The notes below the pieces were generated by a model. It was given only the letters and a program-made list of their open reading frames with translations. It was not told the origin of the DNA and did no database searches. From positions 1 through 24,079 of the IMG/VR virus record IMGVR_UViG_3300025087_000295: DNA of 24,079 nt; one strand, written 5' to 3'. Shown one piece after another: positions 6,055 through 23,858 of the stretch (its first letter is position 1; every line of letters begins with the position of its first letter). The translations under genes and the position numbers were made by a program. The DNA is from a virus.

Positions 6055-6234
6055 TCACTTCCTCTTCCGCATATTGCGCCGGTTCCTGGCCGCCTTCTGC
6101 CTCCCGTCGGCGTAGCGCTTCGTCGCTCGGATGCCGGACGGCAGGGTGTGCTTCGATGCCCGGTGGTAGGCGGGCTGCTTGCGGTACAGGTCCGCAGGCG
6201 TGAAGAACTTTTCGATTAGCTGTTGGAGGTTCAT
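6055..6234 (-). CDS. 59-aa highly basic small protein
   Basis: A short ORF starting MNLQQLIEKFFTPADLYRKQ and ending in a very basic tail (RQKAARNRRNMRKRK). Its ATG overlaps the TGA of the helicase-methyltransferase gene (ATGA at 6234-6231) and its TGA lies 3 nt before the next ATG, so it fills the gap exactly. The basic C-terminus suggests nucleic-acid binding. No family recognised. Confidence 0.75.
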   Translation of the reverse strand: MNLQQLIEKFFTPADLYRKQPAYHRASKHTLPSGIRATKRYADGRQKAARNRRNMRKRK

Positions 6235-8750
6235 TCGATCACCTTTTCCTTCGCTCCGTTTCCAGATACAGATGCCTTGACGGTTTCGAGATAATCAAAC
6301 AGGGTCGGACTGGTTACCTGGCGCTCGATGTCCTGGCAGTAGCGCACGCCGGCGGCGAAGTAGTCCGAGTTCAATTCAATGCCGACGGCTTTACGGTTCA
6401 GCTTCATAGCTTCATAGGGAACGGTGAACAGGCCGGCGAAGGGATCGAGCACCAGGTCGCCGGGGTTGGAATAGAGCCGGATCATCCGCTCTACGGTGTC
6501 AAATGGCAGCGGGCAGACGTGATTCTCCAGGCGCTTGCGGCTTTGGTCGCTGTTTAGCGTGCGCATGAATACCACATCGTCCCACACCCAGCCATGCTTG
6601 CTTTCAGGCGGGGAATAGAAGAAGCTGGCAGGCAGGTTCCCGGCTTTCTCCTTCGCTTCCAGGTATTCGATATGCTGCTCGTAGTCATACAGCTCAGCCG
6701 GATCCAGCGGACCGTTGCCATTCGAGCGCCAGAAGCTATGCGCATCCACCTGCCAGCGCGCCCGGCTGAAATCGTCCTTGCTCTTTTTGATCGGTTCGTC
6801 TGCGTAGGCGTTCTCATTGGTTGACGGCGGCTTGCGAAACAGCAGCAGATACTCAGGCAAGCCGCTGCCCATCTTAGAGGCGTCTTTTGTCATCTCAGTC
6901 CAGCCCAGCCGGTAGGTGCTGGAATTTTCACGCACAACATCGGTAACGATGGTCCGGCGGCCTTCGTAGAGCCAGCCGTGTTTGCGAAAGGCCATTACGC
7001 ACTCATCGCTAAACGGAGCGACTTCCATGAAGCCGCTGGGAGTCTGGTGACCGTACAGGATACGATCCTTGACGTGGATAGCGGCGATGCGCCCCGGTTT
7101 CAGGATGCGCAGCAGCTGCGGAATCAGGAACTCCATCTGTCCCCAGAAATCGGCGTCGGACGGGTTGTGTCCGAAATCTTCCACCTGGGCGCTGTATTCG
7201 TAATGGTTCCCGAATGGCACCGAGGTTGCTATAAGACCGAAGTGGTTATCGGGCATCAGGCGGGTTTCGGCTACGCAGTCGTTATTGATTGCTCGAAATA
7301 GCTTGCCGGTGACTTCCATGCGGTTTACTCCTATGCTCCTGGTCAAATCGCGGCGCATCGCTTCTTGCGACAGGCCGTATTGTTGAACGATGTCACGCAT
7401 CTTGCGGGTCAGCCGGTCATGCTGCCCCCACTTGCGCTTGAGGGTTTCCACTACGCCGTCTTCACTTTCGGCGTAGATAATGTGCACGTCTACATCATGA
7501 TCCTGCTGGAAGCGGTAGGTGCGGTGCACGGCCTGAATGAAATCTTGGAATTTATAATCCACGCCTAGAAAGATATTCGAGTAGCAGTGGCGCTGGAAGT
7601 TACAGCCGCTGCCGGCGATCTCCGGCTTGGTCGCCAGGATTGGGATGCTGCCGTGCACAAAGCCTAAGATGCGCTCTTCGCGGGTATCCAGGTCTTGCGA
7701 GCCGTATACACTGAGCGAGCCTGTGACGGCTTTCTCGATCGCCCGGCGCTCATCTTCCAGGTGATGCCAGAGTAGCCAGTGCCGATCGGGGTTATCGGCC
7801 ATAATTTCCAGCATCTTCTCGATGCGGTCCGGCAACGTCGCCCGCTTCTCGGCGGCGGCTTCACGCACGCCGCCGGCCGAATCCAGATACAGGCGGCGCT
7901 GGCCGTAGTTATCGACGTAGTTCCAGGCACGGGTATGGTCGACATTGATCTTACGCCAGTGCACGTTTAGCTTAGGCAGGCTGTAGCCGTCGTCGGGATA
8001 GCCCAGGTCGGATGGTGTAAACAGGAACAGCGCCCAGGATGCTACCCACAGCCAGAATTCTTTTGCGTGCATCGGATGGATGGTCAGATGGCCGGCTTTG
8101 GCAGTATCGCGTTTGAACCAACGGGTAAGCACCTGGCCGTGATCCATGATGCCGAGGAATTCGGCGTAGTAGATCAATTCTTTGTAATCGTTGGGCGAAG
8201 GCGTTGCAGTGGCAACGAAACGATACGGGGTATTTGCGAACAGGTCCTTGAAGACCTGCGAAGTTTTGCTGCCCAGGTTGCGCAAGATCGAGCCTTCATC
8301 CAGCGATACGCCCGCCAGGCTTTTGATCGTTTCAGCGGTGATATTGCCATCGCGCACCCGCTCATAGTTGGTTATCAGGTACGGGGTATCGGCGGCGGCG
8401 GCTTCGGCGTCGGTGCGCACATACTGCCAGCGCATGTTTAGGACCGGGCCGTCTTCTTCGCTGAATTGATGCTTGACGCCCAGCGGACAGATGACCAGGA
8501 ACCTGGCGCCCGTGCGCTCGTAGATCAACCGGGCAAGCTCGCATTGTATGCGGGTCTTGCCTAAGCCGAAGCTCATCGCAATCAGCGCTCGCCCCAGGTT
8601 GGCCGCCCAGCGCACGGCGTCATTTTGATGCGGGAAGTTAGCGGGGTGCAGGCGGGCGGGATCGACTTCGAAGCCGGTGTGCTCCACGTCTACAACCTTG
8701 CCTTCCAGGAATTGCAGGTATTCGGGGGTGTAGTTAGCGGTGGTTATCAT
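6231..8750 (-). CDS. SNF2-type helicase fused to DNA methyltransferase
   Basis: 839 aa from the ATG at 8750 (MITTANYTPEY), which directly follows the previous stop and has GAGGTGAGG upstream; a longer ORF to 8786 reads into the preceding gene. Residues 35-440 are a superfamily-2 helicase: HQNDAVRWA, Walker A SFGLGKT (60-66), motif II DEGS (151-154), TATPSP (181-186), and motif VI QAVHRTYRFQQ (about 407-416). Residues 490-800 are a beta-class (N4-C/N6-A) DNA methyltransferase: motif IV TSVPFG (509-514) comes first, then NHVCPLPF and motif I LDPFAG (768-773) near the end. Motif IV departs from the usual DPPY/SPPF. Such fusions recur in phages; the likely role is modification of phage DNA against restriction, coupled to helicase or translocase activity. 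Confidence 0.9.
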   Translation of the reverse strand: MITTANYTPEYLQFLEGKVVDVEHTGFEVDPARLHPANFPHQNDAVRWAANLGRALIAMSFGLGKTRIQCELARLIYERTGARFLVICPLGVKHQFSEEDGPVLNMRWQYVRTDAEAAAADTPYLITNYERVRDGNITAETIKSLAGVSLDEGSILRNLGSKTSQVFKDLFANTPYRFVATATPSPNDYKELIYYAEFLGIMDHGQVLTRWFKRDTAKAGHLTIHPMHAKEFWLWVASWALFLFTPSDLGYPDDGYSLPKLNVHWRKINVDHTRAWNYVDNYGQRRLYLDSAGGVREAAAEKRATLPDRIEKMLEIMADNPDRHWLLWHHLEDERRAIEKAVTGSLSVYGSQDLDTREERILGFVHGSIPILATKPEIAGSGCNFQRHCYSNIFLGVDYKFQDFIQAVHRTYRFQQDHDVDVHIIYAESEDGVVETLKRKWGQHDRLTRKMRDIVQQYGLSQEAMRRDLTRSIGVNRMEVTGKLFRAINNDCVAETRLMPDNHFGLIATSVPFGNHYEYSAQVEDFGHNPSDADFWGQMEFLIPQLLRILKPGRIAAIHVKDRILYGHQTPSGFMEVAPFSDECVMAFRKHGWLYEGRRTIVTDVVRENSSTYRLGWTEMTKDASKMGSGLPEYLLLFRKPPSTNENAYADEPIKKSKDDFSRARWQVDAHSFWRSNGNGPLDPAELYDYEQHIEYLEAKEKAGNLPASFFYSPPESKHGWVWDDVVFMRTLNSDQSRKRLENHVCPLPFDTVERMIRLYSNPGDLVLDPFAGLFTVPYEAMKLNRKAVGIELNSDYFAAGVRYCQDIERQVTSPTLFDYLETVKASVSGNGAKEKVIE

Positions 8751-8752
8751 CC

Positions 8753-8977
8753 TCACCTCACTCTGTAATCTTGCACGTGGCGGCAAAGCTGGCAGACGAA
8801 ATGCTCCCAGTCACCGTTTACGAACAGGCTATGCGGCGTCTGTTTGCCGCAGTCTGCGCAGTACATCTGGCGCGCCGGCGTCTGCTGCGCAGCGGCTACC
8901 GCTTCGGCGGGCTGCTGCCGCAGGCGGGCGTGCGCCTGGCGGACAAGCTCTAAAAATGCGTTGGATAAATCGCTCAT
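8753..8977 (-). CDS. Small zinc-ribbon protein
   Basis: 74 aa. An N-terminal helical part (MSDLSNAFLELVRQAHARL) is followed by CADCGKQTPH...HFVCQLC, a CxxC...CxxC zinc ribbon. It lies between the DnaB-like helicase and the helicase-methyltransferase. AGGAG is 10 nt upstream. Probably DNA- or protein-binding; no family recognised. Confidence 0.7.
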   Translation of the reverse strand: MSDLSNAFLELVRQAHARLRQQPAEAVAAAQQTPARQMYCADCGKQTPHSLFVNGDWEHFVCQLCRHVQDYRVR

Positions 8978-12227: not shown

Positions 12228-13199
12228 ATGCCTACGCAGACTGCAACCAACTTGGCGACGGCGCTTGAGCTCGATCTGTCTAACGCCGTTGAAACCTTTA
12301 TTGCCTTGGACCTGGCGGATAAAGCGCCGGCCACCCGCCGCTGGTACGCGCACCGCTTACACGATCTGGTAGAGATGCTGGGCAACAAGCCTTTGGTTAC
12401 GGTGCTGGAAGTGGACCTGCTGGCCTGGAAGGCGGAGCTGATCCGGCGGGATACGCTCTACCAGGGCAATACCACCCGCCCGGCTGAGACGGGCAGCCTG
12501 TCGCCGCAGACGGTATCCGGCTACGTGCGAGCCGCCCGGCGCTTCTTTCGCTGGCTGCTCGAGCACGACTTCTTGCCGGATAACCCGGCGCGCTTGCTCA
12601 AGCCGCCGCGCAAAGGTAGGATCGGGGAGAAGGGCATCTCGGATGCGGACGCCGGCAAGATGCTGGCCGCCGCTTACGAGCAGCCGAGAGATTACGCAAT
12701 CCTGTATTTCGTTTCAGATACCGGCTGCCGGCTGGGGGGTGTGACGCATCTGGCGTTGGGGGATCTGTTTCTAGATCATCCCAAGCCTGAGATGCGCCGT
12801 GTAGCTTTGGTGCGTGAAAAGGGGGATAAAACCCGCCCGGTGGTGATGACCGAAGGCGGGCTAGGAGCGCTCGAGCGCTGGCTGGAAGTGCGCCCTGCGG
12901 ACAGCGGCTTTGACGCCGTGTTCCTGGGTCGCTGCCCCGGTACGCCCTGGCACCCGCTGCAAGAGGCCGGGATTTATGGCATCTTCAAGCGTTACGCTCT
13001 GGCGGGTGGGGTAGGCGGCGCCTGGTCGCCGCATCAGTGGCGGCATCGCTTTGGCCGCCGCATGGCTGCCAATGGCATGAACCTGGGGACGTTATCGCAG
13101 CTCATGGGACATTCAACAAGCTCCGTAACGGTCGAGCATTACGGGATGTTTTCGGTTTCACATCTGCAGGAGGCGTATGACCGCTTCTGGCAGAAGTGA
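12228..13199 (+). CDS. int: Tyrosine-family site-specific integrase
   Basis: 323 aa. N-terminal residues 15-115 are a SAM-like core-binding domain (VETFIALDLADKAPATRRWYAHRLHDL ... RRFFRWLLEHDFLPDNPA). The catalytic domain carries the first Arg in GCRLGG (about residue 167; the usual following Glu is Gly), Lys in EKGDKTRP (about 200), HQWRH (about 268-272), LMGHS (about 294) and the nucleophilic Tyr in VEHYGMF (about 305). It should integrate phage DNA at the tRNA-derived attP lying 83 bp after its stop. The start ATG has only a distant GGGAG. Followed by a clear terminator. Confidence 0.95.
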   Translation: MPTQTATNLATALELDLSNAVETFIALDLADKAPATRRWYAHRLHDLVEMLGNKPLVTVLEVDLLAWKAELIRRDTLYQGNTTRPAETGSLSPQTVSGYVRAARRFFRWLLEHDFLPDNPARLLKPPRKGRIGEKGISDADAGKMLAAAYEQPRDYAILYFVSDTGCRLGGVTHLALGDLFLDHPKPEMRRVALVREKGDKTRPVVMTEGGLGALERWLEVRPADSGFDAVFLGRCPGTPWHPLQEAGIYGIFKRYALAGGVGGAWSPHQWRHRFGRRMAANGMNLGTLSQLMGHSTSSVTVEHYGMFSVSHLQEAYDRFWQK

Positions 13200-13237: not shown

Positions 13238-13281
13238 CGGATCGTACAGGGGACTCACGCGCTCCACCTGTGCGGCAGGCA

Positions 13282-13336
13282 GGACTTAAAATCCCCCGGT
13301 AGTAATACCGTGTGGGTTCAACTCCCACCCGCCCTA
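13282..13336 (+). other. attP core: 3' part of a tRNA-Leu(UAA) gene
   Basis: Contains an anticodon loop CTTAAAA (anticodon TAA) with three paired bases (GGA/TCC), the long class II variable arm CGGTA-GTAA-TACCG (13297-13310), a perfect T-arm GTGGG-TTCAACT-CCCAC (13312-13328) and the 3' acceptor strand CCGCCCT plus discriminator A (13329-13336). The 5' half is missing: no AGGGCGG acceptor strand or D-arm lies upstream, and the outer anticodon-stem pairs are broken. This is the usual attP of a tRNA-targeting integrase, which restores the 3' end of the host gene on integration. The integrase gene lies immediately upstream. Exact crossover ends cannot be set from one copy. Confidence 0.85.
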
Positions 13337-14232: not shown

Positions 14233-14466
14233 TTATTCGGTCTCCCCGGACGTTACGAACAGATCGCCGGGCTGAACGCCAAGAGCGTTGCAAATGCGCT
14301 CTATGGTTTCAACGTCGATCCGTGAGTATGCGCCACGTCGCAGGGCTAGAGCCTGGTTGTATGTCAGGCTGGCAGCTTCAGCGAACTCAGCGGTACTCAT
14401 ATTACGCTGGTCCAGTAATGCGGAGACCGTCAACCGGACGGTCATTGGGGACATCTGACTTAGCAT
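14233..14466 (-). CDS. Cro/CI-type (XRE) helix-turn-helix repressor
   Basis: 77 aa. The HTH is MTVRLTVSALLDQRNMSTAEFAEAASLTYNQALALRRG ... RIDVETIERICNALGVQPGDLF, the usual lambda-repressor-like DNA-binding fold (residues 8-68). It has no oligomerisation domain, so it resembles Cro or a minimal phage regulator. AAGGAGG is 4 nt from the ATG. Its promoter is a consensus sigma70 site with an operator-like sequence over the -35, shared with the 16.8 kb promoter, so it probably controls both. Which role it plays in the lysis-lysogeny choice is not shown. Confidence 0.85.
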   Translation of the reverse strand: MLSQMSPMTVRLTVSALLDQRNMSTAEFAEAASLTYNQALALRRGAYSRIDVETIERICNALGVQPGDLFVTSGETE

Positions 14467-14493: not shown

Positions 14494-14522
14494 ATTGTAT
14501 AGTATATTCGCTTTTATGTCAA
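14494..14522 (-). promoter_or_regulatory. Sigma70 promoter of the repressor gene
   Basis: On the minus strand TTGACA (14522-14517), 17-nt spacer, TACAAT (14499-14494). The predicted start is about 21 nt before the repressor ATG. Confidence 0.85.
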
Positions 14523-14531
14523 GTAGTTAAT
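14516..14531. promoter_or_regulatory. Operator-like sequence at the repressor promoter
   Basis: The plus-strand 15-mer ATGTCAAGTAGTTAA covers the -35 element and is repeated exactly at 16902-16916. The core TGTCAA-GTAG-TTAATA is an imperfect dyad. Probably bound by the adjacent HTH protein. Confidence 0.6.
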
Positions 14532-16879: not shown

Positions 16880-16908
16880 AGTATAAACTATTTTATGTGG
16901 AATGTCAA
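16880..16908 (-). promoter_or_regulatory. Sigma70 promoter of the 16.8-14.7 kb operon
   Basis: On the minus strand TTGACA (16908-16903), 17-nt spacer, TATACT (16885-16880). It reads leftward into the gene starting at 16794 after a leader of about 80 nt. Confidence 0.85.
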
Positions 16909-16918
16909 GTAGTTAACA
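16902..16918. promoter_or_regulatory. Operator-like sequence shared with the repressor promoter
   Basis: ATGTCAAGTAGTTAA is identical to 14516-14530 and again covers the -35. Extended to TGTCAA-GTAG-TTAACA (16903-16918) it is a near-palindrome. Confidence 0.65.
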
Positions 16919-16951: not shown

Positions 16952-17245
16952 TTGACTCACATATGTTACAATCATCCTGCTACTTGTGGTCCAGGGTTAC
17001 TTACTGTAATTTTGACAGAGACGCCTTTACCAATTACCTGGCTTACCTGCCTGTATTGCAAGCACCGTCTTGCGCCAGTGGTGATCAGAGACGGTGTGCC
17101 TGTGATACCGGTGATCAGCTTCTCGATAGTGGTTTACATCGAGCAGGCTGAGATTACGTGCCCGCAGTGCCTGACTGTGCGGCGCTTCGAATACAAGCCG
17201 CCGGTGAAACGCAGGGCGGCGAAGCTGGAAACTGCAACGGTTTAG
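16952..17245 (+). CDS. Zinc-ribbon protein, start uncertain
   Basis: Up to 97 aa. TCLYCKHRL (CxxC) and ITCPQCLTVRRF (CxxC), 35-40 residues apart, form a zinc ribbon similar in plan to small phage Com-like regulators; the tail KPPVKRRAAK is basic. Both candidate starts are TTG codons (16952, or 17012 giving 77 aa) and neither has a good ribosome site. It lies between the leftward promoter and the late promoter, so a regulatory role is possible. An alternative is a decayed gene. Confidence 0.5.
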   Translation: MTHICYNHPATCGPGLLTVILTETPLPITWLTCLYCKHRLAPVVIRDGVPVIPVISFSIVVYIEQAEITCPQCLTVRRFEYKPPVKRRAAKLETATV

Positions 17246-17247
17246 GG

Positions 17248-17276
17248 TTGACATCAAACTGAAAAGTCTATATACT
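17248..17276 (+). promoter_or_regulatory. Candidate late promoter
   Basis: TTGACA (17248-17253), 17-nt spacer, TATACT (17271-17276): near-perfect sigma70 promoter reading right. It starts inside the 3' flank of the zinc-ribbon gene and lies upstream of the whole lysis-packaging operon. Confidence 0.85.
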
Positions 17277-17282
17277 CAAATC

Positions 17283-17376
17283 TGAACACGGTGCGAGTTA
17301 TCCGAAACGGATAACGCCGTGATCCAGCCGGGTGACGCCTGGCGACGCTCCTTCGGGAGTGCGCCTGGCGTTTTTT
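17283..17376 (+). ncRNA. Structured leader or small RNA ending in a terminator
   Basis: Transcription from 17248-17276 would give an RNA of about 95 nt. Hairpin 1: GTTATCCG-AAA-CGGATAAC (17297-17315, perfect 8 bp) closed by CACGG/CCGTG (17287-17291/17317-17321). Hairpin 2 is the terminator at 17335-17376. The two stems are joined by about 13 nt. This could be a free small RNA or an antitermination leader like HK022 put or the lambda pR' leader. Confidence 0.6.
17335..17376 (+). terminator. Strong terminator between the late promoter and late genes
   Basis: ACGCC-T-GGCG, a bulged A, then CGCTCC pair with GGAGTG, CGCC-T-GGCGT around a TTCG tetraloop, followed by TTTTTTG. About 16 pairs with one T-T mismatch; a textbook intrinsic terminator, placed before rather than after its operon. 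Confidence 0.85.
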
Positions 17377-17416
17377 GTTTAACCGCTAACGATGGTCGAA
17401 ATGGAGGCACAATCAA

Positions 17417-17779
17417 ATGACACCTGAAACTTTGGCACTGGTAGCCGGCGTTGTACTATCGCTGGCATTTTCGTATATCCCCACCTTGCGCACCCGCTTT
17501 GCCGAGCTGGCAAAAGAAACTCAGCAACTGGTGATGCTGGGGCTTATGGCCCTGGTTGCCCTGGGAACCTACGCCCTGGCGTGCTTTGGCATCCTGTCGG
17601 ACCTATTTGGCCTGGACATGACCTGCGACAAGATCGGCATTCTGGGATTGGTCCGGGCATTTATCTTTGCGATCATGGCGAACCAGGGAGTATACAAGCT
17701 GACGCCCCAAAAGGTGGATGTACAACTGGCGAAGGCGGAGCGAGACGGCACTGCTGATCTGGGCGTGGGGAGAGGATAA
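17417..17779 (+). CDS. Putative holin-like membrane protein
   Basis: 120 aa with GGAGG 9 nt before the ATG. Three hydrophobic segments: LALVAGVVLSLAFSYIP, LVMLGLMALVALGTYALACFGIL, and a third around IGILGLVRAFIFAIMANQGVY; then a charged tail. I recognise the plan (short first span, LVMLGL span, then xxNQGVYKLTPxK) from small phage membrane proteins placed before lysins. It may be the holin that permits endolysin release. First gene of the late operon. Confidence 0.6.
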   Translation: MTPETLALVAGVVLSLAFSYIPTLRTRFAELAKETQQLVMLGLMALVALGTYALACFGILSDLFGLDMTCDKIGILGLVRAFIFAIMANQGVYKLTPQKVDVQLAKAERDGTADLGVGRG

Positions 17780-17791
17780 AGGAGCCGCCGC

Positions 17792-18097
17792 ATGGATAAC
17801 TGGCTGCCGATCTTTGTTGCCCTGATCACTGGCCTGTTAGGTGGCGGCGGCGTCGCCTGGTATCTAGCCGGATCACAGCGGCGAATCAACGACGCAGAAG
17901 CGGTACTCCGGCTGGCAGACGCCAGAAAGAAAGGGGCTGAAGAAGACGAGCTGGCCGCCAAATCCTGGGTAATGCTGATCCAAACCATGAGCAATCAATT
18001 AGCTGCTTATCGCCTTGAGATAGACAAACTCAAGGACGAGGTAAGGGAGCTACGAACCTACATCAAAGATCAGGGGTTGCTCGACCCACCCCCTTAG
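17792..18097 (+). CDS. Membrane-anchored coiled-coil protein (spanin-like plan)
   Basis: 101 aa with AAGGAG before the ATG. One N-terminal transmembrane helix (WLPIFVALITGLLGGGGVAWYLAG) and a long coiled coil (residues 35-95: AEAVLRLADARKKGAEEDE ... EIDKLKDEVRELRTYI). An N-anchored coiled coil in a lysis cassette resembles an inner-membrane spanin, but no matching outer-membrane partner (lipobox) was found, so this is a plan-level suggestion only. Confidence 0.6.
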   Translation: MDNWLPIFVALITGLLGGGGVAWYLAGSQRRINDAEAVLRLADARKKGAEEDELAAKSWVMLIQTMSNQLAAYRLEIDKLKDEVRELRTYIKDQGLLDPPP

Positions 18098-18119
18098 AGC
18101 GACTTGAAAGGAACGGTAA

Positions 18120-18248
18120 ATGTCAATCGATTTGATCCTGTACGTTGTAGCGTTTATCCTGATGCTGCTGGCGGCCTTCCAGGTCCCGGCCAAGGTTTCC
18201 TGGTATCACCTGAGCCTGGCAGCCTTGATCTTGAGCCTGGTTGTATAA
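18120..18248 (+). CDS. 42-aa membrane protein
   Basis: MSIDLILYVVAFILMLLAAF, then QVPAKVSWYHLS, then LAALILSLVV: two transmembrane segments with a short loop. AAAGGAA is 6 nt upstream of the ATG. It could be a holin or antiholin, by size and place. Confidence 0.7.
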   Translation: MSIDLILYVVAFILMLLAAFQVPAKVSWYHLSLAALILSLVV

Positions 18249-18264
18249 GCAGCAAGTGGACAGC

Positions 18265-18561
18265 ATGCCGGATTTGCAGTCCTTGCAGAATGTCAATGGC
18301 GTCGTGTTCTTGCTGGCATTGTTCGCATGGGTCCAGGCGGCAAGAAAAATTCCGAAGTACCGGGGGCTGGTTGTAGCGCCCATTTTCTACTGTTTTGCGA
18401 CGGTGGTCTTTTACGTGATGGACTACTTTTTCAACTCGCAAGCGATAGGAAATACAACCGCCTACACGATCGCTTCGGCTTATCTGAGACTGGTTGGTGG
18501 ATTGCTGCTCCTGGGCATCGCCATCATCGTCATCGCAGAATACCGGGAGAGGGGCAAATGA
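18265..18561 (+). CDS. Multi-span membrane protein
   Basis: 98 aa from the ATG at 18265; a TTG at 18241 overlapping the preceding gene is an alternative giving 106 aa. Three hydrophobic segments (GVVFLLALFAWVQ, LVVAPIFYCFATVVFYVMDYFF, LVGGLLLLGIAIIVIAEY). Its TGA overlaps the next ATG (ATGA). Ribosome site weak. Part of the small-membrane-protein cluster; no family recognised. Confidence 0.6.
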   Translation: MPDLQSLQNVNGVVFLLALFAWVQAARKIPKYRGLVVAPIFYCFATVVFYVMDYFFNSQAIGNTTAYTIASAYLRLVGGLLLLGIAIIVIAEYRERGK

Positions 18562-19061
18562 GTGAAACCACCATTATCACCATCATCAGCTTTTTGCTGG
18601 GTGGCGGCACCATTGGGGCGCTGATCAGCTTCTGGGCAAACCGCAAAAAGACGGATGCGGAAACAGATAACCTAGTCATCGAAGGGGCTACGGCGCTGCT
18701 CAGGCCGCTGACCGAGCGGGTAACGTGCCTGGAAGGTGACCTGGCCACCGAACGGAAACGGCGCAGTGAATTGAATGATGAGCTGGAGAAAGCCAAACGT
18801 GAAAGCGTGGAGGCCAACCAGCGGAACATTCAGCGCATTGTCGCTTTGGAAGAGGCATTGATCGGCAAGGACGCTGAGATTGCCAAGCTGCAAACCGAAG
18901 CCGAAACACTGAAACAGCAAGTCGCAAGGCAGCGCCAGCAGATTGAAGACCTGGAAGCGCAGCTCGAGGAGCTGAAGCAGACGCCAGTTACCAAACTGGA
19001 AGGCGGAACGGTGATTATCAAGCGTAAGGGCACCGGTCCTTTGAAAGAGAGCAAAACATGA
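18558..19061 (+). CDS. Membrane-anchored long coiled-coil protein
   Basis: 167 aa from the ATG at 18558 (ATGA overlap, GAGAGGGG upstream). One N-terminal transmembrane helix (IITIISFLLGGGTIGALISFW), then an almost continuous coiled coil from residue 45 to 145 (e.g. LATERKRRSELNDELEKAKR). Same design as the 17792-18097 protein but longer. It may span the periplasm in lysis or tether something at the membrane. Confidence 0.65.
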   Translation: MSETTIITIISFLLGGGTIGALISFWANRKKTDAETDNLVIEGATALLRPLTERVTCLEGDLATERKRRSELNDELEKAKRESVEANQRNIQRIVALEEALIGKDAEIAKLQTEAETLKQQVARQRQQIEDLEAQLEELKQTPVTKLEGGTVIIKRKGTGPLKESKT

Positions 19062-20317
19062 GCCTGTTATCCGGTAAAGGTTATTTCATGTGGAAGGCGA
19101 TCAACTGCAACGCCGGGCGCCCGCAGGAGATTGCCGCAGCCGCCTACGCCGCAGATCTGGGGCACGTGCTGATCAAGATCGCGGACGGGGTACTTGGCTA
19201 CAACCAGTCTGTAAACGTCCCGGCCATCGTGGAAGCTCTGCAAGCCTACGGCATCGAAGTCTGGGGCTGGCAGTATATCTACGGCCAATCGCCGTCCGTC
19301 GAAGCGCAGGTTGCCATTCGGGAAATCCTGCGCACCGGCGTGACCGGTTTCGTGGTCAATGCTGAGCGCGAGTTCAAAGCGCCCGGCATGGCGACGGCGG
19401 CCATCGCCTATATGTCCGCATTACGCTCAGGGGTTTCTGACCTGCCAATCGCCCTGAGCACCTACCGTTTCCCGTCCTTGCACCCGCAATTCCCCTACGC
19501 CGCTTTCCTGGCGCGCTGCAACCTGGCTATGCCGCAGGTGTACTGGCTTTACAGCCACGACCCCGTGCAGCAGCTCACGCGTAGCCTGGCAGAGTATCGC
19601 CGGCTAACCAGTCTGCCGATCATCCCCACCGGGGCCGCCTGGAAGCAAAACGGCTGGCAATCCACGCCCGCCGATTGTAACGCCTTCTTGCAGGCTGCGC
19701 AGAGCGCCGGATTGCCGGCGGCCAACTTCTGGAGCTGGGACGCATCGCAAAACCTGCCGACCTGGGACGCCATTGCCGCCTACGACTGGCCGCCTGAGCC
19801 AGCGCCGCTGCCGCCTTCGCCGCCCGAACCGGAGCCTGAACCCGTACCCGTACCCGTACCGCCTATTGTTATCCCGGAGGAAGATATGAATATCGAGCAA
19901 ATCAAGGCGCTTCAGGAAGAGTTCCCGGAAGCTGCCATCATCATCAATATCAATTTCAGCGCCGAGGTATCCGTCCCCGAACCCGAGCCAGCGCCGGATC
20001 CGGAGCCAGAGCCTGAGCCAACACCACAGCCGCCCGCTCCGTCTGCTTACCTGGTGCGCGTGACGGCTGATCCACGCGCCAATGCCCGCTTCACAAAGGC
20101 CAACAACGCCGTCGGGCTGCCTATCATGCAGATTTACCCAAGCGACAGCAGCCTTACCAGCCAGCGCATCCAATTCACGGTAGGCGACTTGCTGCCCGTC
20201 GATCCGAAGGGGCTGCGTGCTGACGGCGGCGAAGACTACTTCAAGCTGACCGGCAAGCGCGGGCGCGACGGCGAGACGCTGTACATCCGTGACGACGACT
20301 GCATCAAGACCTGGTAA
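19058..20317 (+). CDS. Endolysin-like protein (TIM-barrel lysozyme-like domain plus C-terminal domain)
   Basis: 419 aa, ATGA overlap with the previous gene; MWKAIN at 19088 is an alternative start. Residues 10-240 look like a GH25/GH18-like barrel: WKAINCNAG, HVLIKIADG, IEVWGWQYIYG, GFVVNAEREFK (E near residue 100 is a catalytic candidate), LPIALSTYRFP, LAMPQVYWLY, FWSWDASQ. Two Pro/Glu-rich linkers (about 243-270 and 306-328) flank a 35-residue island (NIEQIKALQEEFPEAAIIININF). The C-terminal 90 residues are probably a cell-wall-binding or SH3-like domain. It lies after the membrane-protein cluster and should cut peptidoglycan. The fold is inferred by eye. Confidence 0.7.
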   Translation: MSLLSGKGYFMWKAINCNAGRPQEIAAAAYAADLGHVLIKIADGVLGYNQSVNVPAIVEALQAYGIEVWGWQYIYGQSPSVEAQVAIREILRTGVTGFVVNAEREFKAPGMATAAIAYMSALRSGVSDLPIALSTYRFPSLHPQFPYAAFLARCNLAMPQVYWLYSHDPVQQLTRSLAEYRRLTSLPIIPTGAAWKQNGWQSTPADCNAFLQAAQSAGLPAANFWSWDASQNLPTWDAIAAYDWPPEPAPLPPSPPEPEPEPVPVPVPPIVIPEEDMNIEQIKALQEEFPEAAIIININFSAEVSVPEPEPAPDPEPEPEPTPQPPAPSAYLVRVTADPRANARFTKANNAVGLPIMQIYPSDSSLTSQRIQFTVGDLLPVDPKGLRADGGEDYFKLTGKRGRDGETLYIRDDDCIKTW

Positions 20318-20320
20318 CGC

Positions 20321-20488
20321 ATGAAGCTATCCTTCTTCGTGAGCAACCGCCTGCTACGGCATGTAATCCAGCGCCGCATGTGGCGCATGATCGTAGCGGA
20401 GATCGAAGCCGTTGACAGCCGCCGGGTGCTGTGGACAGACCGGCGGCTGAAGGCGCGCACGCTGCTGCTGTGGAGGCGGGACGGGTGA
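20321..20488 (+). CDS. 55-aa basic protein
   Basis: MKLSFFVSNRLLRHVIQRRM...RRLKARTLLLWRRDG, rich in Arg. It fills the gap exactly between the lysin and the terminase small subunit, overlapping the latter as GTGA. No good ribosome site. Its position upstream of the terminase is also where a cos or pac site would lie. Function unknown. Confidence 0.5.
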   Translation: MKLSFFVSNRLLRHVIQRRMWRMIVAEIEAVDSRRVLWTDRRLKARTLLLWRRDG

Positions 20489-21009
20489 GCGAATCGACAA
20501 AATCGACACTTAAAAAAGAGGCGGACCGCAAGCCTTACACCGACTTCACGGACGAGCGCCGCGCGCGCTTCTTGACCGTCCTGGAGCGCACCGGCAACGT
20601 CACGGCGGCGGCCAAAGCAGCGCGCGTAAACCGCTCCACCGCCTACGACGAGCGCGAGCGTAGCAAGGAATTTGCAGCCGCCTGGAAGGAAGCCGTTGAA
20701 GCTGCCATCGAAGGCATGGAGCTTGAAGCGCACCGCCGGGCAGTGAAGGGAACGCTGAAGCCAGTGTTCTATCAAGGCGACGTCTGCGGCAAGATACGCG
20801 AATACTCGGACACGCTTCTGATCTTCATGCTGAAAGCGCACAAGCCCGAGAAGTACCGGGATACGGTCGAGCACTCCGGCTCGCTGGCGGTAGCCACGCT
20901 CAGCATGGCCGAATGGAAAGCGCAAGCCGAAGCGCGCCGGCTGAAAGCCGCTGAAGTCATGGCGACCTTTGAAGATGACGAAAACGACGCCGGGGAAGCA
21001 GATGCGTGA
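20485..21009 (+). CDS. terS: Phage terminase small subunit
   Basis: 174 aa from a GTG at 20485 (GGAGG 8 nt upstream). Residues 15-60 form a DNA-binding HTH (FLTVLERTGNVTAAAKAARVNRSTAYDERERSKEF), then AIEGMELEAHRRAVKGTLKPVFYQGDVCGKIREYSDTLLIFMLKAHKPEKYRD, a pattern typical of small terminases. It recognises the packaging site and recruits the large subunit. The acidic C-terminus (FEDDENDAGEADA) may contact TerL. GTGA overlap with the next gene. Confidence 0.9.
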   Translation: MSESTKSTLKKEADRKPYTDFTDERRARFLTVLERTGNVTAAAKAARVNRSTAYDERERSKEFAAAWKEAVEAAIEGMELEAHRRAVKGTLKPVFYQGDVCGKIREYSDTLLIFMLKAHKPEKYRDTVEHSGSLAVATLSMAEWKAQAEARRLKAAEVMATFEDDENDAGEADA

Positions 21010-22433
21010 AGCAGTTTTCCCTGCGCGCCGAATACCTGCTAGACAGTCTTGATCTACCCGCCGCTACGGGCGTTGAAGATGCGCAGTGGGAACACTTCCA
21101 GCTTCAGCACCTGAACGACGATAGCACCTTCAGAATTGAAAACAAATCCCGCCAGATAGCCTGGTCGTGGACTGTAGCCGCCGAAGCGATAGCGGATGCG
21201 CACCTGCAAGGCGACGGCACCATCTTTGTGTCGATCAACCAGGAGGAAGCCGCCGAGAAGATCCGCTACGCCCGCCAGATACACGAAGCCATCAGCCTGG
21301 CAGGAACGCCGCGGCTGATCCGTGACAGCGTAATGAGCATGGAGTTCGACAACGGGGCGCGGCTGATCTCGCTGCCCAGCCGCCCGCCACGCGGCAAATC
21401 ACGCATGAACGTGGTGTTGGACGAATTCGCCCACGTTCAGCGCGATCGGGATGTTTACACGGCGGCGCTGCCGGTCATCTCGAAGGGTGGCAGGCTGCGA
21501 ATTGGCTCATCGCCGCGTGGGGCTTCGGGTGTGTTTTGGGAAGTGGCAGAGCAGAAGCTGCGCAAGTACCCCGGCTACCGGCGCAAACGTACCCCGTGGT
21601 GGGAAGTAGCCGCCTTCTGCGTCAACGTAGCAGCTGCTCGCAAGCTTGCGCCGGCGCTGACCACCGAGCAGCGAGTAGCGTTATTCGGCAATGACCGGAT
21701 ACAGGCGATCTTCGCCAATATGCCGGAAGATGATTTCGGACAGGAGTACGAATGCCAGATCGTAGACGAAACCACCGCCTGGATATCCTGGGACCTGATA
21801 CGGCGCAATCAAGAGGCCTTCGAGAGCGGCCACATGCGCTGGTACCGGGCGTCCAACGTAGACGACGCCCTGGCGCTGATCCCGCTGGTCCTGGAAGCGA
21901 TCTCAGACGGTCACATGGAGCCGTCGCTGGCCGGCGGGATCGACATCGGGCGCAAGAAGGACCTGAGCGAATTATTTGCAGTCGGGCGCACGACGGACGG
22001 GCGGATGCCGCTGCGCATCGCCGTGTCGCTGGACCGGGTAGAGTTCGACGACCAGGCGGCCTGCTTCACGCAGCTGATCGAGCGCCTGCCGTTTACGAAT
22101 GTGCTGGTCGATCAGACGGGCATTGGCAACCAGCTCGCAGAGCACCTGGAAAAGACCGGCAAGGCAACCGGCGTGACATTCACCAACGAGCGCAAGGCGC
22201 TGTGGGCGATCGAGGCGAAGCTGCAAGCGGAGCGCGGCAACGTGCCGCTGCCGCCGGACCGGGAGATTGCCTACCAGGTGCATTCCATTCGCAAGACTAC
22301 GACGGCGGCGCGCAATGAAGTCTATGACACGGAGGCCAACGAAAAGCATCACGCCGATAAATTCTGGGCCTGGGCGCTGGCGATCTACGCTGCGCAGGGT
22401 TCCGCGGCGAGCTTTGTGGTGAGGTACACATAA
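21006..22433 (+). CDS. terL: Phage terminase large subunit
   Basis: 475 aa, GTG start overlapping the terS stop. ATPase part: adenine/Walker A-like NKSRQIAWS (46-54), Walker B VVLDEF (136-141), and a coupling motif IGSSPRG (167-172). Nuclease part (RNase H-like): GGIDIG (D313), LVDQTG (D369) and HHADKFWAWALA (D451), the three acidic residues that hold metal. Complete by length. It cuts concatemers and drives DNA into the procapsid through the portal encoded next. Confidence 0.95.
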   Translation: MKQFSLRAEYLLDSLDLPAATGVEDAQWEHFQLQHLNDDSTFRIENKSRQIAWSWTVAAEAIADAHLQGDGTIFVSINQEEAAEKIRYARQIHEAISLAGTPRLIRDSVMSMEFDNGARLISLPSRPPRGKSRMNVVLDEFAHVQRDRDVYTAALPVISKGGRLRIGSSPRGASGVFWEVAEQKLRKYPGYRRKRTPWWEVAAFCVNVAAARKLAPALTTEQRVALFGNDRIQAIFANMPEDDFGQEYECQIVDETTAWISWDLIRRNQEAFESGHMRWYRASNVDDALALIPLVLEAISDGHMEPSLAGGIDIGRKKDLSELFAVGRTTDGRMPLRIAVSLDRVEFDDQAACFTQLIERLPFTNVLVDQTGIGNQLAEHLEKTGKATGVTFTNERKALWAIEAKLQAERGNVPLPPDREIAYQVHSIRKTTTAARNEVYDTEANEKHHADKFWAWALAIYAAQGSAASFVVRYT

Positions 22434-23858
22434 ATGGTTGACGCAATCGAAATGAGTTACCTGGACGCTTTAGCGCAGTCCGAGCTGGACTTGCAAAGCG
22501 ACATCGCCCTATGCCGCCGCTATCATGAAGGCAAGCACGACACGCTGCTTACCGAGCGCATGAAAGAGTTTTTGGGCTTGCACAAGAACAAGCGGGCGCA
22601 GTTCAAGATGAACCTGATCCGCTCCGTGGTAACGGCAATCAGTGAGCGGCTGCTGGTATCCGGCTTCGATAGCACGGAGCCGGCGGACGCTGAAGGCGTG
22701 AAGCTGCAAGCGCAGTGGGCATGGGACCTGTGGCAGGCTAACCGCATGGATGCAATCCAGGTAGACGTGCACGACCAGGCGCTGGTATCCGGCGAGCATT
22801 TTGTGATCGTAGACTGGGACGCCGCCAAGCGCCGCCCGCATTTCACACCCACCCCGCGCTACACCGACACCACCGCCGGCGGCGACGGCTACGGGGTGCT
22901 GATGGTCTACCCGGACGGCGACATCTATTCCGATCCTTTGTATGCCGTCAAGCAGTGGACTGAAACGATCGTGGTCGGCGGCGAGCGCCGCAGCCGGCAG
23001 CGCCGCACGCTCTACTACCCGGAGCGCATCGAGCGTTACGTGCGTGGCGACGGCGGCGGGACGTGGCGGGAGTACGAAGGCGTACCGCCTGCAACCGCCT
23101 GGCCGCTGCCCTGGATTGGCAGCGACGGCTTGCCGCTGGGCATCCCGGTCGCCCACTTCCGCAACAAAGATCTGCGCCCTGAAGCCCTGGACATCGTGCC
23201 CATGCAGGACGCGGGCAATAAGACGCTGATCGACCTGCTGGCATCAGCGGACGTTTCCGCCTTCCGCATCTTCAAGGCTTTCGGGTTTTTTCCCACTTCC
23301 GACGGCAAGGAACCTAAAACGGACGGGTCGAACGCGCAGCGCATCGCTCCAGGGCAGATCATCGGCTCGACCAAGGGGCCGCAGGATGCGAGCTTCGATG
23401 CGATCGAAGCCGGCGACCTGAGCCAGATATCGGAGGTGCTTTCGCAGCTCGTGCTGCTGACCGCTATCGTATCCGACACGCCCGCCAGCCGCTTCATGCA
23501 AACCCGCCAGGTATCCAGCGCCGAAGCCTTGCGCGAGCAGCGGGAGCCGCTGGAAGCGAAGGTGGTCAACCGCCAGACGCTGTTTGGCAACGGCTGGGAA
23601 GATGTAATGAGTATCTCCCGCCGCCTGTCTAACCATTTCGGGCAAGCCGGGCTTGACGAAAGCCAGCGCCTGACAACGCTGTGGAGCAGCCGCCAGACGC
23701 TGGAAGACGTGGCCGCCAAGCGGCAGCTGGGCGTGCCCGAGGAACAGTTGTGGATCGAAGCCGGTTACACGCAAGAGGAAATTGCAGCGATGAAGGAAAC
23801 CGACGAATACCGGGCGCGGTCGATGATGCGCCAGATAGGATTGGGCGGTGAGGGGTGA
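22434..23858 (+). CDS. Portal protein (SPP1 gp6-like)
   Basis: 474 aa, starting right after the terL stop with GAGGT upstream. Landmarks: RRYHEGKHDTLLT, NLIRSVVTAISERLLVSGF, DVHDQALVSGEHFVIVDWD, IPVAHFRNKDLRPEALDIVPMQDAGNKTLIDLLASADVSAF, then TPASRFMQTRQVSSAEALREQREPLEAKV, typical of gp6-like portals. It forms the dodecameric channel at one capsid vertex. Length is normal. Confidence 0.9.
   Translation: MVDAIEMSYLDALAQSELDLQSDIALCRRYHEGKHDTLLTERMKEFLGLHKNKRAQFKMNLIRSVVTAISERLLVSGFDSTEPADAEGVKLQAQWAWDLWQANRMDAIQVDVHDQALVSGEHFVIVDWDAAKRRPHFTPTPRYTDTTAGGDGYGVLMVYPDGDIYSDPLYAVKQWTETIVVGGERRSRQRRTLYYPERIERYVRGDGGGTWREYEGVPPATAWPLPWIGSDGLPLGIPVAHFRNKDLRPEALDIVPMQDAGNKTLIDLLASADVSAFRIFKAFGFFPTSDGKEPKTDGSNAQRIAPGQIIGSTKGPQDASFDAIEAGDLSQISEVLSQLVLLTAIVSDTPASRFMQTRQVSSAEALREQREPLEAKVVNRQTLFGNGWEDVMSISRRLSNHFGQAGLDESQRLTTLWSSRQTLEDVAAKRQLGVPEEQLWIEAGYTQEEIAAMKETDEYRARSMMRQIGLGGEG

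Follow-up and report, generated by a model that had tools for sequence, protein, structure and literature searches.

The late genes of IMGVR_UViG_3300025087_000295, a linear IMG/VR virus record of 24,079 bases that was analysed whole (hereafter the window) and is possibly a fragment, stand behind a near-consensus promoter and a predicted intrinsic terminator set close together, and the same promoter-terminator unit recurs upstream of a holin-like gene, TerS or a lysin in diverse relatives. We think it moderately likely that the unit is a late switch, in which a terminated transcript of ~94 nt is made by default and read-through into the late genes needs an antiterminator, most likely the zinc-ribbon protein whose gene adjoins the promoter. 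An earlier note on this DNA had argued that a terminator between late promoter and late operon implies antitermination, and the recurrence of the layout strengthens that argument.

Virus, host and gene layout

The virus in the window looks temperate: it carries an integrase and a Cro/CI-type regulator, its early genes are mostly leftward, and its late operon runs rightward from 17417 (Table 1). Bacterial genomes with relatives of its TerL are mostly Anaerolineales/Chloroflexota assemblies, and the host side is Anaerolineae (Chloroflexota-type bacteria). One carrier of the unit is a cultured bacterium, Ornatilinea apprima, and in the prophage of strain P3M-1 the gene order is prim-pol, zinc-ribbon protein, TATAAT, terminator, TerS, TerL.

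The 15-base operator-like repeat has exact copies at two promoters, that of the regulator itself and the leftward early one; allowing up to 3 mismatches, none was found at the late promoter. Beside the integrase gene, at 13278-13334, there is a tRNA-Leu-like 3' part (GACTTAAAATCC...GTGGGTTCAACTCCCAC) that is probably the attP core; ARAGORN found no whole tRNA in the window. A single leftward ORF of 851 aa occupies 6231-8786, with helicase-like matches and an adenine methyltransferase-like match at its C-terminus.

Table 1. Features of the window that bear on late-gene control
Feature	Position	Strand	Remarks
Tyrosine integrase	12228-13199		
Cro/CI-type HTH regulator, likely lysogeny repressor	14236..14466	(-)	Pfam HTH_26 3e-15
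Operator-like repeat TTAACTACTTGACAT	14516..14530	(-)	exact; at regulator's own promoter
Operator-like repeat TTAACTACTTGACAT, second copy	16902..16916	(-)	exact; at leftward early promoter
Extended -10-like TGtTACAAT, possible zinc-ribbon gene promoter	16964..16972	(+)	no good -35
Zinc-ribbon protein, candidate antiterminator	17012-17245	(+)	two CxxC knuckles ~31 residues apart; start codon uncertain, 16952 or 17012
Late promoter, -35 element TTGACA	17248-17253	(+)	
Late promoter, -10 element TATACT	17271-17276	(+)	
Leader hairpin 1	17287-17321	(+)	14 bp with 4-nt bulge; -16.6 kcal/mol
Small hairpin CCGGGU-GAC-GCCUGG, possible antiterminator	17328-17342	(+)	3' strand is start of terminator 5' arm; -6.7 kcal/mol
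Predicted intrinsic terminator	17334-17372 (core 17336-17370); T6 17371-17376	(+)	UUCG loop 17352-17355; -27.5 kcal/mol
First late gene (hol1), small membrane protein, holin-like by position	17417..17779	(+)	120 aa
Remaining late operon within window	17792..23858	(+)	coiled-coil/membrane proteins, lysin, TerS, TerL, portal-like
Putative lysin	19058-20317	(+)	by position and size only
TerS	20431-21009	(+)	
TerL	21006-22433	(+)	
Portal-like gene	22434-23858	(+)	by position and size only

The promoter-terminator unit in the window

On recheck, the promoter, hairpin and terminator coordinates given in the earlier note are all exact. The -35 and -10 elements are separated by a 17-nt spacer, only two bases lie between the end of the zinc-ribbon gene at 17245 and the -35 box, and the RNA is predicted to start at ~17283, giving a terminated product of ~94 nt. 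The terminator with its TTCG loop and T6, followed by 40 nt to the first late gene, stands as described, that gene having an SD GGAGG at 17403 before its ATG. The hairpin reported as GTTATCCG-AAA-CGGATAAC (17297-17315) is likewise present, but its full stem is longer than had been proposed (hairpin 1 in Table 1).

In 10 kb there are three 11-of-12 promoter matches, the late promoter among them; promoters were scored with the weights of E. coli sigma-70, the host being Chloroflexota. The leader RNA folds with z = -3.3, an equally good fold arising in 2 of 200 shuffles, and the 5' leader of the window folds better than 200/200 shuffles (p = 0.005). The palindrome of hairpin 1 occurs once in the window against 0.10 expected (at up to 3 mismatches). 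A terminator scan of the window gave no overall excess (10 vs 9.0) and detected the late terminator only as a short inner stem; the case for this terminator is built on its folding energy and its recurrence in relatives. The spacers of the window and its relative L021 have 9 of 17 letters in common, including AAAGTC beside the -10 (shuffle p 0.058, from two sequences).

Recurrence in relatives

A single-sequence scan with hol1 gave no relative, and an alignment of six hol1 proteins gave 73 loci, of which 61 are non-identical, the window included. A strong terminator lies within 160 nt upstream of hol1 in 17 of these 61 loci, where the frequency elsewhere in these loci would predict 0.74, and the median promoter score is 10.0 before those 17 terminators compared with 5.3 before 71 others in the same loci (Mann-Whitney p 6e-5; the loci are mutually related, so that p-values for recurrence are overstated, the effect nonetheless being large). 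The leaders used for promoter statistics were picked by homology alone, superseding an earlier set that was partly hand-picked. By the same criteria a strong terminator is absent at 44 of the 61 loci, in some cases owing to a short contig; the layout is common in relatives, not universal.

L089-L093 carry inserted genes (methylase, tRNA or others) that separate the zinc-ribbon gene from the late genes, and the unit adjoins hol1. Since it stays with the late genes there, the terminator is not simply that of the zinc-ribbon gene itself. Two copies of ATATCTGG are present in L089 and L091 (similar in L092), one in the -35/-10 spacer and one just after the start, and are possibly a protein-binding repeat. 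Elsewhere (L105, L151, L153 and L103), GTTTAA or GTTAA, or GTTTTAA in L103, follows the leader hairpin, even where the T-run is poor.

The zinc-ribbon protein and its neighbourhood

The earlier note had named the zinc-ribbon protein (there 16952-17245) as first suspect for the antiterminator, a choice that gains from the position of its relatives, which adjoin promoter-terminator units as well. Homologues are encoded directly upstream of the unit in the window, L021, L003, L014, L084, L086, L088, L095, L116, L181 and L182. In L186 a single small ORF, and in L185 ~0.3 kb, separates the two. At least 12 distinct phages have the gene directly or closely upstream. In L178 and L179 it lies ~1.2 kb upstream of the unit, and in L085 and L194 no unit was found in the stretch read. 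The small ORF of L186 between zinc-ribbon gene and late promoter (L186:1651-1859) also has Cys pairs.

Relatives recovered by alignment and later searches have two CxxC-like knuckles ~30 residues apart. Identity between the window-type proteins (the window, L021, L186) and most of the other branch is only 10-16%, so that the two branches are likely, and no more than likely, a single family. As a single query the window protein found no relative in IMG/VR, and alignment A6 (type 1) had diverged too far to be used in scanning viral sequences. All Pfam matches of the zinc-ribbon proteins are below cut-off, with no ANTAR or CAT RNA-binding domain among them. NCBIfam gave no match for the window protein and none above cut-off for other members (best E 2e-5, ECs_2282_CxxC), PHROGs gave none above cut-off (best 7e-5, unknown function, for L021), and INPHARED gave none in DNA or zinc-ribbon protein searches. 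The AlphaFold2 model is confident and all-beta (pLDDT 84.5), and a fold search with it found nothing in the PDB or among viral structures at E <= 0.001, the best VIA Z being 2.2.

The earlier note had recognised no Q-like gene, and indeed no protein in this record, possibly a fragment, matches either Pfam Q family (PF03589, PF06530), while control genomes do; we therefore do not count the window system among the Q families. The antiterminator may also lie outside the record.

The gene upstream of the unit is not always a zinc ribbon, and in some relatives other small proteins take its place. L106 has a DUF2292-like protein there (E 0.0015, below cut-off), which the small proteins of L002, L101 and L139 resemble by eye; that of L098 is Cys-rich with no recognised zinc-ribbon, and L099 and L103 share another small protein. 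By analogy with the Q families, this slot may hold non-homologous factors.

Leader RNA

Hairpin 1 is significant in the window, L021, L105 and L186, and accompanies the window-type zinc-ribbon protein (the window, L021, L186), whereas the leaders of the other zinc-ribbon branch are mostly short and without it. Such branch-specific pairing of leader and regulator fits a joint exchange of both. The expectation that the tandem hairpins would be conserved in relatives does not hold, since most leaders in that other branch have no hairpin 1. We also rejected the palindrome of hairpin 1 as a conserved element: it has exact matches in 6 IMG/VR stretches, none of them in a similar setting by eye. Among the short leaders, those of L098, L181, L185, L178, L179 and L184 have in common a motif around AACTGAATAGG, placed ~10-13 nt past the -10 box.

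The small hairpin that shares its 3' strand with the beginning of the terminator 5' arm recurs more widely. Of 16 zinc-ribbon-linked leaders, 14 have it, where dinucleotide shuffling predicts 8.2 (p 0.002) and swapping arms between leaders predicts 8.9 (p 0.003), these being values for a pattern noticed before testing (post hoc) in leaders that are not all independent. The 18 other leaders show no excess (8 vs 6.7, p 0.33), and enrichment over all leaders is modest (22/34 vs 14-15 by shuffle, with 45% in control terminators). At -6.7 kcal/mol against -27.5 for the terminator, the small hairpin in the window would need help to win.

Proposed mechanism and alternatives

From this anatomy we infer an active promoter, a point of termination, a factor and its possible modes of action. 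The promoter (17248-17276) would probably be active without a phage activator, the terminator (17334-17376) would end its transcript after ~94 nt, and only read-through by RNA polymerase would allow expression of the genes for lysis and packaging. In a lysogen the repressor would silence the early genes, probably the zinc-ribbon gene too, while the late promoter would fire and its transcript terminate; upon induction the factor would appear and the late genes would be read. Release of the repressor would allow the zinc-ribbon protein, the most likely factor, to be made. Its target would be either polymerase, whose RNA exit channel it would narrow as do Q21, AlpA and P7, or the leader RNA, in which it would stabilise the small hairpin overlapping the terminator arm. 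A bolder version, in which these proteins are a new Anaerolineae-phage family of RNA-binding antiterminators that hold the small terminator-excluding hairpin, not a Q-type polymerase nozzle, strikes us as unlikely.

The same switch might be worked by some other protein of the phage or by a factor of the host, with the zinc-ribbon protein no more than a bystander, for instance a Com-like or DNA-binding regulator. Relatives with the same layout and unrelated small proteins in the slot speak for this, as does the leader motif GACAACTGAATAGGTCTA, which is common to L181 and to L098, in which no zinc-ribbon was recognised; yet many phages that otherwise differ have the zinc-ribbon gene next to the unit, and enrichment of the overlap hairpin is confined to leaders linked to a zinc ribbon, and on balance we hold the bystander role to be somewhat unlikely. 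It is quite improbable that the hairpin is a passive attenuator, or an mRNA-stabilising 5' structure, that lowers late expression without any regulator: it is kept with a poor T-tract in a few relatives (L105, L131, L151), but most retain both a good T-run and a strong stem.

The anatomy would also suit a gene for a stand-alone small RNA of ~94 nt, with the late genes read from elsewhere or by leakage, and the lambda pR'-tR' transcript is itself a small RNA. However, in many phages the late operon comes immediately after the unit, the leader sequence is not conserved as expected of an RNA gene, and Rfam gave nothing above threshold, making this very unlikely. More doubtful still is the put-like reading raised in the earlier note, in which hairpin 1 and the next hairpin would themselves render polymerase terminator-resistant in the style of HK022. 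There are indeed two hairpins within ~90 nt of the start, the first of them significant in four loci; but the second large hairpin is the terminator itself, hairpin 1 is lacking in the short leaders of the other zinc-ribbon branch, and known put elements lie after early promoters (PMC9378689).

We found no description of late-gene control of Chloroflexota phages in the literature searched. The recurrent promoter-terminator unit marks a probable late-switch site and names a candidate factor. If confirmed, antitermination by the zinc-ribbon protein would add a small, previously unnoticed kind of antiterminator, and a further case of lambda-like late control built from non-homologous parts.

Comparison with known systems

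Two RNA-based systems resemble the window in part. In HK022 put, an RNA of ~70 nt that acts without a phage protein, two stem-loops lie near the 5' end of the transcript, as here, but put is downstream of the early PL or PR whereas the window unit precedes a late operon, its hairpin 1 is not generally conserved, and its second large hairpin is a terminator. In ANTAR and BglG/LicT leaders a small hairpin overlaps the proximal arm of the terminator (PMC3369936), and the small hairpin of the window, a possible antiterminator overlapping the terminator 5' arm, is alike in logic only: the zinc-ribbon protein has no match to an ANTAR or CAT RNA-binding domain, and the loop of the overlap hairpin is 3 or 11 nt, not an A1/G4 hexaloop.

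Protein-based late antitermination offers closer parallels, the same principle being shared by lambda Q and Q21 (PMC7171158), by Xp10 P7 (PMC6624301) and by GafZ (PMC11150451). As at lambda pR'-tR' with Q (also Q21 and Q82), a late promoter is followed by a terminator before the late genes, and the gene for the candidate regulator, in a role that is putative here, lies directly upstream of the late promoter; a QBE and a sigma-dependent pause belong to the lambda side of the comparison. In Xp10, the small phage protein P7 enables host polymerase to transcribe through the intrinsic terminators that precede late genes (PMC6624301); general sequence and fold searches with the zinc-ribbon protein, rather than a direct comparison, reported no match to P7.

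Among described systems, AlpA of P. aeruginosa comes closest: there, terminators that lie 26 and 54 nt past the start keep the lysis genes blocked until AlpA is loaded at the promoter (PMC7969949). AlpA is predicted to include a winged helix, whereas the candidate in the window is a zinc ribbon for which no relative was detected outside its own family, and a binding element between -35 and -10 belongs to the AlpA side of the comparison. The geometry of the alpB and PA0807 promoters, each followed by an intrinsic terminator 26-54 nt downstream and before the lysis genes, is nevertheless that of the window and L021, where 53 nt separate the predicted start from the terminator arm, within the AlpA-type range of ~25-55 nt. 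As far as anatomy tells, then, the window system would work like AlpA, Q, P7 and GafZ.
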